This document shows, one piece after another, positions 14,244 through 19,815 of a stretch of 21,987 bases of DNA (its first letter is position 1; every line of letters begins with the position of its first letter). The notes beneath the pieces were generated by a model. The model had not been told where the DNA came from. It ran no database searches and worked only from the letters and a program-made list of their open reading frames with translations. The DNA is from a virus, in the IMG/VR virus record IMGVR_UViG_3300045944_000075, positions 1-21,987 of that record; one strand, given 5' to 3'. The translations under genes were made by a program, and so were the position numbers.

Positions 14244-14419
14244 GCCGCATCCTCCGGCAGCACGACTACGTCCAGCCGCGCATTGATATTGTCCAGGCGC
14301 TCCTGCGCGGCCTCACGGCGCATGGCAAGCCGGCAAAGCCCGCAGTACATACTATCCGCGTCGGCCGAGACATAGGTCCGGTTGCACTTCTCGCACACCA
14401 ATGTGTGGACCTCAATCAC
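14240..14419 (-). CDS. Small zinc-ribbon protein
   Basis: This 59-residue protein starts with GTG at 14419-14417, with AGGAG five bases upstream, and overlaps the VRR-NUC stop (GTGA). A longer in-frame reading to 14629 would run through the nuclease gene and is rejected. C9, C12, C26 and C29 (VCEKCNRTY ... YCGLCR) form a four-cysteine zinc ribbon, followed by a charged helix (MRREAAQERLDNINARLDVV). Proteins of this type are common in phage early operons and are presumed nucleic-acid or protein adaptors. Its function is unknown. Confidence 0.62.
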   Translation of the reverse strand: MIEVHTLVCEKCNRTYVSADADSMYCGLCRLAMRREAAQERLDNINARLDVVVLPEDAA

Positions 14420-14811
14420 CACTTCTCCTCGGCGGACCCGGCAAGCGCAAGCTCCTGCTGCCCGGTCATCGCATGCAGCCAGCCGAATGTCTCGCGGTAC
14501 CACGCCTCGAATTGGTTGAAGTCGTAGACGGTGACCACGAGAGCACCTCGAGCCGCTTCGCGGGCCTGCCACTTCTTCTGCTGTGCGCTGCGTTTGCTGC
14601 CGGGCCTCGGGGATTTTGTTTCCAACCATAGCGAGGCGCTGGCACCAAGAGGCTTCTCAAAGTAAAAAATAAAGAGCGCATCACAAATACCAGGCTCACC
14701 AGTCTGAAATTGGCCTGGAACGACTGTGCGCTGCATCCGTACAGTACGCCAGCCACGAAACTCCAAGAAGTGCTTTGTCTGGAGATAGACATCACGTTCG
14801 AGAAGCGGCAT
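14416..14811 (-). CDS. VRR-NUC domain nuclease
   Basis: This 131-residue protein starts at the ATG at 14811-14809, with AGGAG five bases upstream, not at the in-frame codon at 14904 that lies inside the upstream gene. It shows the VRR-NUC (PD-(D/E)XK) core: a helix (VYLQTKHFLEFRGWRTVRM), GEPGICDALF with Asp44, LWLETKSPRP with Glu64 and Lys66, and a following Gln-containing helix (SAQQKKWQAREA). Family members act as flap or Holliday-junction-type nucleases in replication and repair. Short single-domain versions are frequent in phages, where they may resolve recombination or replication intermediates. The first 20 bases overlap the HNH gene. Confidence 0.85.
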   Translation of the reverse strand: MPLLERDVYLQTKHFLEFRGWRTVRMQRTVVPGQFQTGEPGICDALFIFYFEKPLGASASLWLETKSPRPGSKRSAQQKKWQAREAARGALVVTVYDFNQFEAWYRETFGWLHAMTGQQELALAGSAEEKW

Positions 14812-15580
14812 CTGATCTCCTGAAATGTGCGGTTTGGATAGCTTCGGATGGTGTTCTGCCGTGATACAGGCGCGTGTAGATTGTCGGAGCTGGAATACCG
14901 ACAAGTTTCGCCCACTCGGAAACAGGGTGTGTTTCTCCGTTAATGGTTAAAAGCCGGTTGGTGCTCCTAGCGGGAGTTCTTAGGGATTGGGCCTGGATGG
15001 CTTTCTCGGGCGGTATTCCGTAGCGTAAACGTAAATAAATTTTGCCCGCCGGGACGCCTGTTTTTTCTGCCCACGCAGAGACTGGCAGCGTCTCTCCATT
15101 TATTGTCAACAGCCTGTTATTGCGGCGATTTCTCTCCTGCTCGGTCCATGTTGCCCATCGGCAGTTGCCCGGTTCGTAGGGGCCGTTATTGTCGATGCGG
15201 TCGATACTGTGACCCTTGGATGGGCGCGGTCCCATGTCGTGATAGAAGTTGAGAAACTCGCGCCATTCAGGACAGACCGTAATTCCGCGTCCTCCGTATC
15301 TCGGATAATACTTATCGGATGGAGTAAGGCAACGAGCCAACATGCCTGCCCAGATCTTGTGCTCGGATGTCCGGCTCATTCCGTGTGTTGCCGATCGTTT
15401 GTTTCGCGCGATGGTTATTTCGCGTGACAGGCAGCCACATGACTGAACAAATCCACGCCGCAGGTCAGATGGTTGGACGCTTTTCTCATTACCGCATGTA
15501 CACCGGCACAGGGCCGTCTTTCTACCATTGGCCCGCCCCAGAGAGACAACTGTTAAGCGCCCGAACACCGTGCCGATCAT
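14792..15580 (-). CDS. HNH homing endonuclease with duplicated C-terminal DNA-binding repeat
   Basis: This 262-residue protein has three parts. Residues 1-55 hold a Cys-rich AP2-like head (CRCTCGNEKS ... SCGCL, C25/C27/C29 and C48/C50). Residues about 65-155 form the HNH nuclease core: YGGRGITVCPEW, then HSIDRIDNNGPYEPGNCRW and a QERNRRNN tail. Two copies of a 42-residue unit (156-197 and 209-250) follow, each with RLLTINGET.PVS.WA, a V/IPA turn, IY.RL and a final EAIQ-like helix, resembling NUMOD-type specificity repeats. Such free-standing enzymes cut DNA lacking their own gene and so spread. It sits between the 183-residue gene and VRR-NUC gene; the start is four bases after the upstream stop. 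Confidence 0.83.
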   Translation of the reverse strand: MIGTVFGRLTVVSLGRANGRKTALCRCTCGNEKSVQPSDLRRGFVQSCGCLSREITIARNKRSATHGMSRTSEHKIWAGMLARCLTPSDKYYPRYGGRGITVCPEWREFLNFYHDMGPRPSKGHSIDRIDNNGPYEPGNCRWATWTEQERNRRNNRLLTINGETLPVSAWAEKTGVPAGKIYLRLRYGIPPEKAIQAQSLRTPARSTNRLLTINGETHPVSEWAKLVGIPAPTIYTRLYHGRTPSEAIQTAHFRRSDAASRT

Positions 15581-15584
15581 CGTT

Positions 15585-16136
15585 CTAAACCTGTGCGGTA
15601 GTCTCCTGGGCTGAGGCCTGGCCGAATGGCGCCACGCGGCGGCCGCGCTTCGGCTTTTCCTTGGGCCCGGGTTCAGCAGGCTCGTCCTCTTCGGCCTCCT
15701 CCGCTTCCTCGAATTTGTCCTGTTGGAGCACGTTCACGGTGAGTTTGGCTTTGCCCTGTCCGATGGCTTTGACGTACTCATTAACAAGCGGAACAACAGA
15801 AGCCGGCGCATAGACGTGAAAGCGCAAGGTACGCTCGACGACACCGTCTTCCTCGTGCCGGATAACCCGGAAATCGCCGATGCGGTGAGCGAGCATCTCG
15901 AGGTCATGCTGCTCGAGGCCGGCGCACGTCATCCGCAGCTCTGTGGCGGTTTTGTCTTCGATGGTCAGCGGAATCCGTTTGGCGGATTCGATGGCGAGCA
16001 CATCTTCGCAGTTCAATTTCTCCGCCAGCGGCCTGGTCAGGTCGCAGGCAATGTCGATGCGCAGGAGCCAGTCGTTGTCCTGCGGGCGGACGTCGAAGTG
16101 TAGTATGTGTGCTCCGAGAAAGTTCAGTTTAGGCAT
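15585..16136 (-). CDS. Early protein of unknown function with charged tail
   Basis: This 183-residue protein starts with ATG, overlapping the previous gene by eight bases; AAGGGAAA lies upstream. Residues 1-135 look like one folded alpha/beta domain (NFLGAHILHFDVRPQDNDWL; later ERTLRFHVYAPASVVPLVNE). The tail is first acidic (EEAEEAEEDE, about 143-152) and then basic (KEKPKRGRR). Acidic or mixed tails of this kind are seen in ssDNA-binding proteins that recruit partners, and the neighbours are recombination enzymes. I cannot recognise an OB-fold signature, so this is only a possibility. Confidence 0.65.
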   Translation of the reverse strand: MPKLNFLGAHILHFDVRPQDNDWLLRIDIACDLTRPLAEKLNCEDVLAIESAKRIPLTIEDKTATELRMTCAGLEQHDLEMLAHRIGDFRVIRHEEDGVVERTLRFHVYAPASVVPLVNEYVKAIGQGKAKLTVNVLQQDKFEEAEEAEEDEPAEPGPKEKPKRGRRVAPFGQASAQETTAQV

Positions 16137-16366: not shown

Positions 16367-17329
16367 TTAATCGTTGATTTGCGAAAGCAGCATCACCTTA
16401 ATTCCCGAGGCAGCGAAGATCTGCTCCATTTGTTTAGATGTCGCGCCCACGCCGCGATAGCCGCCATGTCCGATCAGAAGGACATCACAGGAATTAGCTT
16501 TCATTTGTCGGAGTACGGCGGGATAGTCATCACCTATAACAGGCTTGCATTCAATTCGGAGATGATAGTTATTGGAGATGTGACTAAATGTCACGCATGA
16601 ATGGTCATTCCAATTGAAATAACTCTTAAAGCGGCAGTTGTCCGGCATGTCCGTACTTACATTAAAGCGAAATTGGACATCAGCTCCTTCTACCTCGAAT
16701 AGCAACTCCAAAATCTCAAGTACCGGTACTGGTGATGATTCCAGCCAATCCAATCGCGCCTTATATGCCAGATTGAGCCGCGCCAATTCGCTTTGCGCGT
16801 CTGTTATTTCCCTTGTAGGTGAACGAATAGAAAGGTTCCAGTGATTGGTCGTTGATTTTAGCCAGTCTTCTTCTGTAAGCGGGGCAATAAAAACTTCATT
16901 GGCGTGATCATACACGAACTTTTTTCTGTACCTCTCGTACGCCTGCGAGTCCGGCTTATCCCCAATGTTCACAAGTCGATCAGTATTCTTCTGAATAATG
17001 CTCTGGCACGCTTGTATATCTTTTTCACGTCGAGATATCGCGCGCATTTGTTCCTGTCGTAACAAGTTCTGCCAGTATCGTTCGCCCAGAAATGCCCACA
17101 GGAAAACTTTGCACCATTCCTTATCGGTGAACCGCACCTGTAGAGCGTTGTGTTCCGGAGTCTCGTGCGGCTGGGAAAAATTGTTGACGATGAGCGTGTG
17201 GATCGCGGTGTAACGTGTTCTGAACCAATCCTGTTCAGTAAGCCACTCGCAGTACTCCTGATCCTGTGCCATTACTTCAACAGGCTGGCCTTTGTATTTC
17301 CCGAACGGAACGACTGACAGGTTAGGCAT
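16367..17329 (-). CDS. ExoX-C-like domain fused to a PD-(D/E)XK-like domain
   Basis: This 320-residue protein has two recognisable ends. Residues 6-50 (VPFGKYKGQPVEVMAQDQEY, CEWLTEQDWF) match the exodeoxyribonuclease X C-terminal/DUF3820 type. Residues about 205-320 look like a PD-(D/E)XK nuclease fold: GADVQFRF with Asp217, LRIECKPVIGDDYP with Glu260-x-Lys262, a LRQMK helix with Gln275, then VLLIGHGGYRGVG and a final strand. The middle (90-200) is helical and charged. The family is not known to me as a named enzyme. It is placed one gene downstream of a Sak4-like ATPase, so a DNA-end processing role is likely but inferred. Confidence 0.65.
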   Translation of the reverse strand: MPNLSVVPFGKYKGQPVEVMAQDQEYCEWLTEQDWFRTRYTAIHTLIVNNFSQPHETPEHNALQVRFTDKEWCKVFLWAFLGERYWQNLLRQEQMRAISRREKDIQACQSIIQKNTDRLVNIGDKPDSQAYERYRKKFVYDHANEVFIAPLTEEDWLKSTTNHWNLSIRSPTREITDAQSELARLNLAYKARLDWLESSPVPVLEILELLFEVEGADVQFRFNVSTDMPDNCRFKSYFNWNDHSCVTFSHISNNYHLRIECKPVIGDDYPAVLRQMKANSCDVLLIGHGGYRGVGATSKQMEQIFAASGIKVMLLSQIND

Positions 17330-17332
17330 GCT

Positions 17333-17599
17333 TCACGCGACCTCCCCCACTTCCTGTTTTTCGACCTGCGTTGAGGTCGGCGCGCCTCTCTCCACATCCT
17401 GGGCAGCGAGCTTGTAGCCCTGCCAGCAGCGCTGCACCGCGGTGATCTGGACAAGCACCGGCTTGGCGTTGCCTTCCCTGATCCAGACGAAGTCGCCTAA
17501 TCGCATGACGATCTCCCCCGGCTCTTCCCAAGCGGGGATATCGTCAGCAACAGTGGCATCCACATCGGAAGGCCACGTACCTGGTTGCAGGTTGCTCAT
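17333..17599 (-). CDS. Hypothetical early protein
   Basis: This 88-residue protein starts with ATG overlapping the upstream ATPase stop (ATGA). It has an acidic N-terminus (DVDATVADDIPAWEEPGEI) and a small beta-type core (IVMRLGDFVWIREGNAKPVL, VQITAVQRCWQGYKLA), reminiscent of an SH3-like barrel. The C-terminus is acidic. There are two other open frames on the same strand in this interval, which lack coupling and look like shadows. No family recognised. Confidence 0.55.
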   Translation of the reverse strand: MSNLQPGTWPSDVDATVADDIPAWEEPGEIVMRLGDFVWIREGNAKPVLVQITAVQRCWQGYKLAAQDVERGAPTSTQVEKQEVGEVA

Positions 17600-18801
17600 T
17601 TCCGTCGTGACCTCTTGCTCGGTTGGTCGCCGGGATCGCCGGCATAAGCGAGTTCCGGTTCTGGGAACAGCGTCGGCTCCGCTTTAGCTGGACGCCAGGC
17701 GCTGACGTCAGCGCGGAAGACGTACTCGAGTCCCTGGAACGTGATGCGGTCACCGTCTTTCGACTCGGCAATATCAGGGAATCCATTGACCGGAACGGCG
17801 GGAGCATTGCTTGCGTTCACTGAAGTTGTCGCCAGATCCGCACCAGCTTCAGACTGGCCGGATCGCAATGCATTCCCGCCGTTTACTACCCCGTTGCTGT
17901 CTTCGTCGCGTGGGGTTTCCGTTGCGTTCGCATCTCGGTCTGATTTTTCGGCCGTCGCCTTGTTCTCTGCGTGGTACGGCTCAAGCGTCTTTCTTTGGGC
18001 AGCAGTCAGGCGCCCAAAGAACTGCTTGTACGCATCCATGCCCTGTTCCGCCGCAGCCTTCGATCGCTTGATAAGTTGCTCGTTCGCTTCCAGCGGCTGC
18101 CCGCTTTCGTTCCACCGACGGATACGCTCACCGTCGACCTTTGTGATCAGTTTCGGTTCAGGGAAGAACGCCCAGAGATCGTCGTGGCACTTCTTTACGG
18201 TGGACAGGTGCGTCTCGGGATCAACCGAGAAAGCCAGCAATTGAGGGTAAAAATTGTTCTTTTCCCAGATCGGCAAAACTCCGAGGTCGATGTATTCCTG
18301 TTTGCCTGACTCAGATTTAGTCTTGTCGATGATCTTGGTTTTAGCTTGCGCCTTCAGACACCAGATGACGTGCATATCCGAATTGGCGACGCGCGCCATC
18401 ATCCTCTTATTCGCAAGCTTTGCTCCAGCCCACATCCCCTTCGCAGCTTCCGCGATGTCAGTACAGCCACCGGGACCGTCCCAAGAATCAGAACCGCTGT
18501 CAATTAGGCAGACCTTATACCCGCTGCTCTCAGCGATGTCGATCGCTTCCACGTATCGTTTCGGATGATACGGTGGCTCAAGCTCTATAACGTCGAATCC
18601 TTGAGGTAGCGCTGAGAGGATTTTTTTGTTATCGGCGTAAAGAGACGCCCGACCGCGCTCCGAATCGATGACGACAACCTTTCCGTCCGGTGCCAAGCCG
18701 GCCGCGAATAGCAGCGCACTGAAAGTTTTTCCTGATCCCGCGGGCCCATAAAAAGCTAGTTGCAAGGAAAGGGATCGACGGACAGCATGTCTTACTTGCA
18801 T
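17596..18801 (-). CDS. Sak4-like RecA-fold ATPase (phage recombinase)
   Basis: This 401-residue protein has a Walker A loop (GPAGSGKT, residues 19-26), a strand with VVVIDSERGRASLYA and a Walker B (YKVCLIDSGSDSW, Asp101). This pattern (AAA_24, RAD51-like) is that of Sak4-type single-strand annealing ATPases, often encoded by phages next to an exonuclease. The ATPase core ends near residue 220; a helical piece (about 235-280) and a polar linker follow. The C-terminal part (DGDRITFQGLEYVFRADVSA) looks like a small beta domain. The gene lies three bases after the RecE-like gene, and with it forms a probable exonuclease-annealer pair. Confidence 0.82.
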   Translation of the reverse strand: MQVRHAVRRSLSLQLAFYGPAGSGKTFSALLFAAGLAPDGKVVVIDSERGRASLYADNKKILSALPQGFDVIELEPPYHPKRYVEAIDIAESSGYKVCLIDSGSDSWDGPGGCTDIAEAAKGMWAGAKLANKRMMARVANSDMHVIWCLKAQAKTKIIDKTKSESGKQEYIDLGVLPIWEKNNFYPQLLAFSVDPETHLSTVKKCHDDLWAFFPEPKLITKVDGERIRRWNESGQPLEANEQLIKRSKAAAEQGMDAYKQFFGRLTAAQRKTLEPYHAENKATAEKSDRDANATETPRDEDSNGVVNGGNALRSGQSEAGADLATTSVNASNAPAVPVNGFPDIAESKDGDRITFQGLEYVFRADVSAWRPAKAEPTLFPEPELAYAGDPGDQPSKRSRRK

Positions 18802-18804
18802 CGT

Positions 18805-19815
18805 CTAGACCCCATAGGCCAACGCTGGGAATTCTTCATCCACGAGCGGCTCAACATCACTCGGATCACGCCAGGGTTTTGTGCCGTACTTTTCTGAGCA
18901 GGCTGCGTACAGCCGAATCAGATTACGCACCTCAATGCGCGCCGTCTCCCAAAGCATGTTGACCTGGGCGGCCGCTTTGGGAAGCAATGAGCGAATTCGC
19001 ACCTCATGCGGCTGTTCTGACTCGACAAAGGCCAGCACGTAGCGCTGTACTTTCTGCGGTCCTGACGTTGGATCAAGGCCAGCAAACAGCGCCATCAGGA
19101 GGCTATAGAAGTAGCCCTGCAAATGATATTGCTCCCAGTAGATAGCGTCGGTGACAGTCTTATCGATCGACTTGCCGCGCTTCTGGCTGAAGGTCTTCAG
19201 GTCGAGGATTGTCTTTTCTGTCACCCAATCGAGACGGCCCTTCAGCCGGACGCCTGTCTCTGGATCTCGCACGAGAATGCAGAATTCGGACTGTCCGCCT
19301 TCGGATAGGATTGCCTGCAACTTTGGTTCAGCTTGCAGGGCCTTCGCAGCCGCGTACACGCGGTCCCAGTCATCGCGCGGCAACATGACCTTACCGTTAT
19401 GCTGCGCGAAGTGACGGCGCTCCAGAACGTCGAAGATCGGCACGCTGGCATCAATGGAGACAGCCTGCTCGATGACATCTGCCTTTCGCGTGCCTTTTGG
19501 AGTTTGCCCTTTGCTCCTGATCCACAAACGGATGTCTTCGATAGTTTCCAGGCAGCCGTCGAAATCTTCCGGCCCGATCTTGGAGGCGTAACGGTCCAGA
19601 AACACATCCGGCTCGAGCACCGCACAGTGGAGCGCTGAACCAAGCCGCATTTCTGGCGTAGGCTCCTCGATCACGCGCTCAGGGTTGATCCAGCGAAACC
19701 AGAAACGTAACGGCGAGACAGCGAGATCTTTCATCTGCGAGTACGATAGACCTGGCGCATCGAAGTACTCAGCCGCCGACATACGCCGCGCTTCGATCTG
19801 TGCCGCGACACCCAT
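18805..19815 (-). CDS. RecE-like PD-(D/E)XK exonuclease
   Basis: This 336-residue protein matches the RecE/lambda-exonuclease-like (exodeoxyribonuclease VIII) family that trims 5' strands to make 3' single-stranded DNA for recombination. Motifs in order: SYSQMKDLAVSPLRFWFRW (N-terminal), GSALHCAVLEPD with His63, SEFCIL with Glu177, LKGRLDWV with Asp196, ILDLKT with Asp205-x-Lys207, and YHLQGYFYS with Gln233. These are the residues of the metal-dependent active site. The start ATG overlaps the previous stop (TAATG). The partner ATPase follows immediately. Confidence 0.88.
   Translation of the reverse strand: MGVAAQIEARRMSAAEYFDAPGLSYSQMKDLAVSPLRFWFRWINPERVIEEPTPEMRLGSALHCAVLEPDVFLDRYASKIGPEDFDGCLETIEDIRLWIRSKGQTPKGTRKADVIEQAVSIDASVPIFDVLERRHFAQHNGKVMLPRDDWDRVYAAAKALQAEPKLQAILSEGGQSEFCILVRDPETGVRLKGRLDWVTEKTILDLKTFSQKRGKSIDKTVTDAIYWEQYHLQGYFYSLLMALFAGLDPTSGPQKVQRYVLAFVESEQPHEVRIRSLLPKAAAQVNMLWETARIEVRNLIRLYAACSEKYGTKPWRDPSDVEPLVDEEFPALAYGV

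Follow-up and report, generated by a model that had tools for sequence, protein, structure and literature searches.

A two-part family of virus proteins that joins an ExoX-C-like module to a predicted PD-(D/E)XK nuclease core

Results

A further candidate nuclease gene in a minus-strand gene run

The stretch of virus DNA analysed here (the window, 21,987 nucleotides, IMG/VR record IMGVR_UViG_3300045944_000075) carries an intact 320-residue open reading frame (ORF) with an ATG start at positions 16367-17329. The frame had been proposed in an earlier note and is real, with the correction that it is read from the minus strand, the plus strand of the same segment being interrupted by many stop codons. 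The gene is part of a tight minus-strand run, between p88, from which 3 nt separate it, and p77, which follows at a distance of 4 nt, with the order RecE-like, Sak4-like, p88, the gene described here, p77, p183, HNH, VRR-NUC-like and replication initiation protein (Table 1). With genes for a RecE-like nuclease and for HNH and VRR-NUC-like endonucleases already present in the window phage, the need for a further nuclease is not obvious.

Other features of the run deserve mention. At least four nuclease genes stand in it. The HNH endonuclease contains two copies of the repeat LLTINGETxPVSxWA in its C-terminal half, which are likely to bind DNA, and p183, located between two nucleases of the recombination module, had no match in Pfam and PHROG searches. 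The G+C content of the nuclease gene (0.472) is the lowest among 19 tabulated genes, compared with 0.565 for the window, so the gene is perhaps a recent arrival there. An identical protein is encoded on a 49,411-base IMG/VR contig.

Table 1 Features of the window and of the 320-residue protein
Feature	Position in window	Strand	Basis
ORF, ExoX-C-like module plus predicted PD-(D/E)XK-type nuclease	16367..17329	-	ORF call, Pfam, alignment, AlphaFold2
ExoX-C-like module, residues 1-50 (PFGKYKG, D23, Y26 and W29 conserved)	17180..17329	-	Pfam, NCBIfam, alignment
PFGKYKG motif, residues 8-14 (G10 and K11 in 64/64)	17288..17308	-	alignment
Helix 58-68, taken as first nuclease-core helix (N61 in 64/64, H60 and Q64 in 63/64)	17126..17158	-	alignment, models
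Variable insertion, residues 70-200, mainly helical, separating first helix from strand 1	16730..17122	-	alignment, model
Residues 202-320, remaining predicted nuclease core	16370..16726	-	model
Glu212, strand 1, invariant	16694..16696	-	alignment, model
Asp217, start of strand 2, invariant, predicted metal ligand	16679..16681	-	alignment, model
Glu260-Cys261-Lys262, strand 3, E and K invariant, predicted catalytic E-x-K	16544..16552	-	alignment, model
Gln275 (59/64), helix after the E-x-K strand, within GDDYPxxLRQ	16505..16507	-	alignment, model
RecE-like exonuclease (DUF3799; PHROG 412 exonuclease VIII)	18805..19815	-	Pfam, PHROGs
Sak4-like AAA_24 ATPase (PHROG 1366)	17596..18801	-	Pfam, PHROGs
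VRR-NUC-like endonuclease, overlaps end of HNH gene	14419-14904	-	PHROG 93 'endonuclease'; the VRR-NUC name is our reading
HNH endonuclease	14795-15580	-	
p183, 183-residue protein	15588-16136	-	

Homologues and conserved residues

Profile searches recovered 64 viral loci and 21 loci in bacterial genomes, and the first 95 residues, used as query, returned 35 viral loci, some of which hold the module only. A more diverse profile gave 70 viral loci, mostly on the same contigs; the further contigs that it reached (e.g. L142 and L151) were left out of the alignment. Starting from 81 loci, we dropped L090, L093, L094, L095 and L110-L118, which are truncated or carry the N-terminal module only, and from the remaining 68 the fragment L091, the duplicates or near-duplicates L087, L088 and L105, and L070, which is the window protein itself. 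The 63 non-redundant homologues thus obtained were aligned with the window protein (alignment A2, in which some rows stand under an earlier locus identifier of the same contig; a second alignment, A3, omits L057, L072, L108 and L109). Starts were taken mechanically as the first ATG, GTG or TTG, and some N-terminal extensions (e.g. in L072) are probably too long.

All 64 proteins share the two-part layout. Despite a mean column identity of 13% in A2, ten residues (G10, K11, Y26, W29, N61, E212, D217, E260, K262 and P263) are invariant, and R274, P270 and Q275 are retained in 62, 62 and 59 rows, respectively. The residues that the earlier note had singled out in the window protein (D217, E260-x-K262 and Q275) are therefore exactly numbered, and these putative active-site positions are kept in 64, 64, 64 and 59 of the 64 rows. 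In a 15-sequence alignment D217 appeared to be missing from L012; FEVMGADV occurs nearer the N-terminus of this protein, which as L057 shows the aspartate in A2. The substitution pattern is that of purifying selection, with dN/dS of 0.26-0.52 in five of eight pairs (of the others, one is saturated and two are identical). Inactive members exist in the PD-(D/E)XK superfamily, and the protein could in principle be a catalytically dead scaffold of this type; we regard this as very improbable, as none of the 64 rows departs from D, E or K at these positions, which is unexpected for a dead site.

Searches of the window protein against Pfam, PHROGs, NCBIfam and PADLOC gave nothing significant except ExoX-like_C and a DnaQ-type C-terminus, and no model in these four collections describes the two-part layout, in line with the earlier note, which knew no named family of this kind. 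None of the 64 members matches NucS_C (PF01939), DUF3799 (PF12684) or VRR-NUC (PF08774) at E <= 0.01, and NucS_C has no match in the window record. The PDB sequence search returned chance-level matches for the window protein (neurexin, E 0.83) and likewise for the family profile, and no sequence-profile link from the family to a characterised nuclease was found.

The ExoX-C-like N-terminal module

The resemblance of the N-terminus to the segment behind ExoX-type exonucleases, suggested in the earlier note, is weak in the window protein itself, in which residues 9-32 match Pfam ExoX-like_C (PF20600) with E 8.7e-5 and 22.3 bits, below the curated cut-off of 26.5. Across the family it is clear, with a match at E <= 0.01 in 51 of 64 members (best 4.5e-10) and 27.6 bits, above the cut-off, for L010. 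Residues 2-37 likewise align with the C-terminal end of PRK06309, the NCBIfam model of DNA polymerase III epsilon (E 2.2e-4); the NCBIfam matches reach the C-terminal end of their models only. As in the ExoX-like_C segment of ExoX/DnaQ-type exonucleases, PFGKYKG is followed by conserved D, Y and W. By contrast, the module is here the leading part of PD-(D/E)XK-type proteins that lack the DnaQ exonuclease domain, and no Pfam match to a DEDD exonuclease domain precedes it in any of the 64 members. A PDB sequence search with the N-terminal module gave chance-level matches only.

The ExoX-C-like unit is, as judged from sequence, a portable module, because it recurs in helicases, ATPases and further proteins met in the search. 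It lies at the C-terminus of ResIII-type helicases in L026 and L032 (by the related QSregVF_b model). As side observations, PFGKYKG modules stand behind phage SF2 (ResIII/DEAD) helicases (L026 3585-5174, L030 3597-5162 and L032 3591-5177) and before AAA_15/AAA_21 (SMC/OLD-like) ATPases (L110 3665-4561, L111 7995-8924 and L112 7977-8891). These three ATPase loci come from Campylobacterota and Saprospiraceae contigs; the calls in L110 and L111 are by Pfam and that in L112 is by eye from the PFGKYKG sequence. In four further proteins (L028 4320-5207, L034 4404-5156, L114 868-1581 and L115 7365-8231) the module is C-terminal with no other Pfam match, and our impression, and no firmer than that, is that L028 and L115 resemble single-strand annealing proteins.

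In the one open-access library searched we found no paper on PFGKYKG, none on ExoX together with phages, and no relevant title for DUF3820, ExoX-like or QSregVF. E. coli ExoX had residues 168-220 removed for crystallization and structure determination and the remainder was still active, according to PMC3753628, so the presence of the module alone does not imply exonuclease action.

Predicted fold of the nuclease domain

The AlphaFold2 model of the window protein has a pLDDT of 80.8 and a pTM of 0.66, with parts of the insertion below 50, whereas that of the compact homologue L038 (185 residues) reaches 93.0 and 0.75. The predicted models contain an alpha-beta-beta-beta-alpha-beta core of PD-(D/E)XK type, as the earlier note would have had it. 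After the insertion, the window model comprises strands 202-213, 216-226 and 253-265, helix 269-278, strand 283-291, helix 298-307 and a last strand. D217 is located at the start of strand 2, E260 and K262 in strand 3 and Q275 in the following helix, which is the order of D, E-x-K and Q in PD-(D/E)XK enzymes.

Structure comparison of the L038 model with VIA-align gives NucS (2vld_B) as the best match (Z 10.0, rmsd 2.4 over 98 residues, chain 126-231), followed by EndoMS (9.5 and 8.6), Card1 (8.2) and Cdn1 (8.0). Other rows list restriction, CRISPR-associated and defence nucleases, including Can2, BstEII, PaqCI, FokI, MspJI, BamHI, Shedu and Cap4. For the window model, Cdn1 (Z 7.3) and EndoMS (Z 7.2) rank highest in a list that also holds matches of helices in the insertion. 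In both comparisons, the top rows for L038 excepted, most Z values are no higher than unrelated folds may attain. Foldseek against the PDB assigns L038 probabilities of 0.97 to MspJI, 0.97 to NucS 2vld, 0.89 to SfsA and 0.80 to EndoMS, with E values that are not significant alone (0.007-0.011 for L038, best 0.0068; best 0.036 for the window model). Families that do not appear in these comparisons are not thereby excluded.

The structural alignments begin at residue 52-58 of L038 and at chain position 126 of 2vld, and the catalytic region of NucS spans residues 126-233 according to PMC5290159. From this shared starting point we take helix 58-68 to be the first helix of the core and the variable middle, 20-143 residues long across the family, to be an insertion inside the predicted nuclease domain. 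The assignment of the nuclease to the C-terminal 115 residues in the earlier note covers most of the predicted core but leaves out this putative first helix, which precedes the insertion.

NucS/EndoMS, the archaeal and actinobacterial mismatch endonuclease, thus matches the L038 model across its whole catalytic domain and likewise combines an N-terminal accessory domain with a C-terminal nuclease. It differs in that its N-terminus is the NucS DNA-binding domain and that of the present family is ExoX-C-like, and in that the family has an insertion after the first helix. We considered membership of the NucS family and rejected it, there being no NucS_C profile match in the 64 members at E <= 0.01 or in the window record. 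The phage RecE-like DUF3799 nucleases, one of which is encoded close upstream in the window, belong to the same broad superfamily according to their Pfam description, but the present family has no DUF3799 match and differs in motifs and accessory domain.

Genomic neighbourhood

DUF5906 is matched by 15 of the 110 nearest ORFs on the same strand, D5_N by nine, VapE by eight and Prim-Pol by four, and DNA primases and helicases are the commonest named PHROGs among these neighbours. L039 and L074 are examples of loci with an adjacent primase-helicase. A DUF5906 or VapE match (E <= 0.001) is found in 21 of the 50 records analysed (out of 54), and in 19 of these 21 it lies within 1.5 kb of the nuclease gene (the exceptions are G010 and G028), compared with 3.0 expected at random placement; the corresponding probability of 5e-16 assumes independent records, and these are independent only in part. 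ResIII helicase matches occur in 10 records, directly behind the gene in G044 and G046 and within about 1 kb in G035 and G045. As a side observation, an SF2 helicase gene begins directly behind the nuclease gene in L086 (7911-8741) and in L084 (1861-2658), an arrangement that suggests a helicase-nuclease pair. Because the gene adjoins primase-helicases and SF2 helicases, replication intermediates are the probable target.

The primase-helicase neighbourhood, far beyond chance, also speaks against a different role, in which the protein would attack host or competitor DNA or exclude superinfecting phages instead of serving phage replication. Enzymes of restriction or defence account for many of the fold matches (Card1, Cdn1, Can2, MspJI, Shedu and Cap4) and a low G+C content is what mobile cargo may have, but PADLOC, run on six proteins, gave only a weak match to SspE (E 0.005) in one of them, and we consider such a role improbable.

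The vicinity of RecE-like and Sak4-like genes, to which the earlier note drew attention, is found in the window, but it is closeness to primase-helicases that is a feature of the family. The RecE/Sak4 vicinity was rejected as the usual setting of the family: across the 68 loci the two genes occur together only in the near-identical contig L070, and a Sak4-like gene is present in one other locus, L063, 3.7 kb away. In G001, a near-identical relative of the window, the nuclease gene lies inside a recombination module and no primase-helicase of DUF5906/VapE type was seen. The two neighbours in the window, and a module named for exonucleases, would suit a narrower form of the nuclease reading, an exonuclease that resects ends together with an annealing or strand-exchange protein, as RecE does with RecT. 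The rarity of the setting, the RecE-like exonuclease already present in the window and the activity of E. coli ExoX lacking its C-terminal segment weigh against it, and we hold this form to be rather unlikely.

Another narrower form, which we rate somewhat higher though still below an even chance, is a structure-specific junction or flap endonuclease of resolvase type that would clean recombination and replication intermediates before packaging. The fold is nearest to that of NucS, a structure-specific endonuclease as described in PMC5290159; the gene occupies a replication module, and RusA occurs in only two of the 50 records. The last point is weak, since the records are fragments and the search misses genes: DUF3799 was found in two of 50 records and not in G001, in which phmmer detects the window's RecE-like protein with E 2.2e-232. 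We therefore rejected the RusA and DUF3799 absences as strong evidence. Another resolvase candidate is moreover often at hand, VRR-NUC-type nucleases being present in 11 of the 50 records at E <= 0.001 (six above the cut-off).

Members in bacterial genomes and probable members in a cultured phage and giant viruses

In tblastn searches the window protein had no match among 50,697 phage records or 72,556 plasmid records, and a third family member had none among the phages; a compact homologue matched a single phage, Phaeobacter phage MD18, whose laboratory host is P. inhibens DSM 17395, and no plasmid. The MD18 protein (QJA43040.1, 351 residues, deposited as a hypothetical protein) carries a degenerate N-terminal motif, PIGKFSG, together with SPEHNKIQxxFLD, FESFCDV and ELKPTIGDEYPKIMRQM, and its N-terminal 81 residues give a profile match with a probability of 99.5. 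It is a probable distant member of the family, from which it differs by long insertions. The bacterial contigs with homologues (21 loci) come from several phyla according to their record titles, which we take to be Bacteroidota, Desulfobacterota and Pseudomonadota.

When the L038 model was compared with BFVD, full-length proteins of LCMAC102 (193 residues, E 3.5e-12, 28% identity over 200 columns) and LCMAC101 (254 residues, E 2.7e-11) were retrieved, suggesting that marseillevirus-like giant viruses probably have a member as well. According to PMC6401483, LCMAC102 consists of one contig of 395,459 bases that includes the full set of core genes, so a binning error is unlikely. A further BFVD row, A0A6H1Z762 (351 residues, E 3.1e-7), may, to guess from the equal length, be the same protein as QJA43040.1.

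Discussion

The two-part layout is a new, unnamed architecture inside a very large known superfamily. We consider it likely that the protein acts on DNA as a metal-dependent PD-(D/E)XK nuclease within the phage replication and recombination module, a reading that includes Mg2+ because the conserved D, E and K sit in the right fold. The further DNA-processing enzyme with a PD-(D/E)XK-like domain foreseen in the earlier note thus gains support from the predicted fold and from residue conservation. The Mg2+ ligands would be D217, E260 and the main chain of residue 261; K262 would serve to place the water, and the active site would be bordered by Q275 and the conserved helix 58-68; the roles of the D, E, K and Q residues are those generally known for the superfamily. 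The ExoX-C-like module, in the simplest view a targeting unit, may recruit the enzyme to the DNA on which it acts or to a replication-fork partner, a role comparable to that of the N-terminal domain of NucS, which positions the catalytic domain of that enzyme. As substrate we favour single-stranded or branched DNA (flaps, junctions or forks), which the neighbouring primase-helicase or recombination proteins would supply.

More tentatively, and in our view with the odds against it, these proteins may form a widespread, as yet unnamed family of replication-fork nucleases common to tailed phages and marseillevirus-like giant viruses, with the PFGKYKG module as a portable docking or single-strand-binding unit that directs nucleases, SF2 helicases and SMC/AAA-type ATPases to the same DNA intermediate.

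The finding offers a testable function for virus proteins left without a family name and would mean that many uncultured phages carry a nuclease in their replication module. It also provides a handle on the C-terminal segment of ExoX, cut off for the structure reported in PMC3753628. The probable member in MD18, a cultured phage with a laboratory host, makes tests practical.
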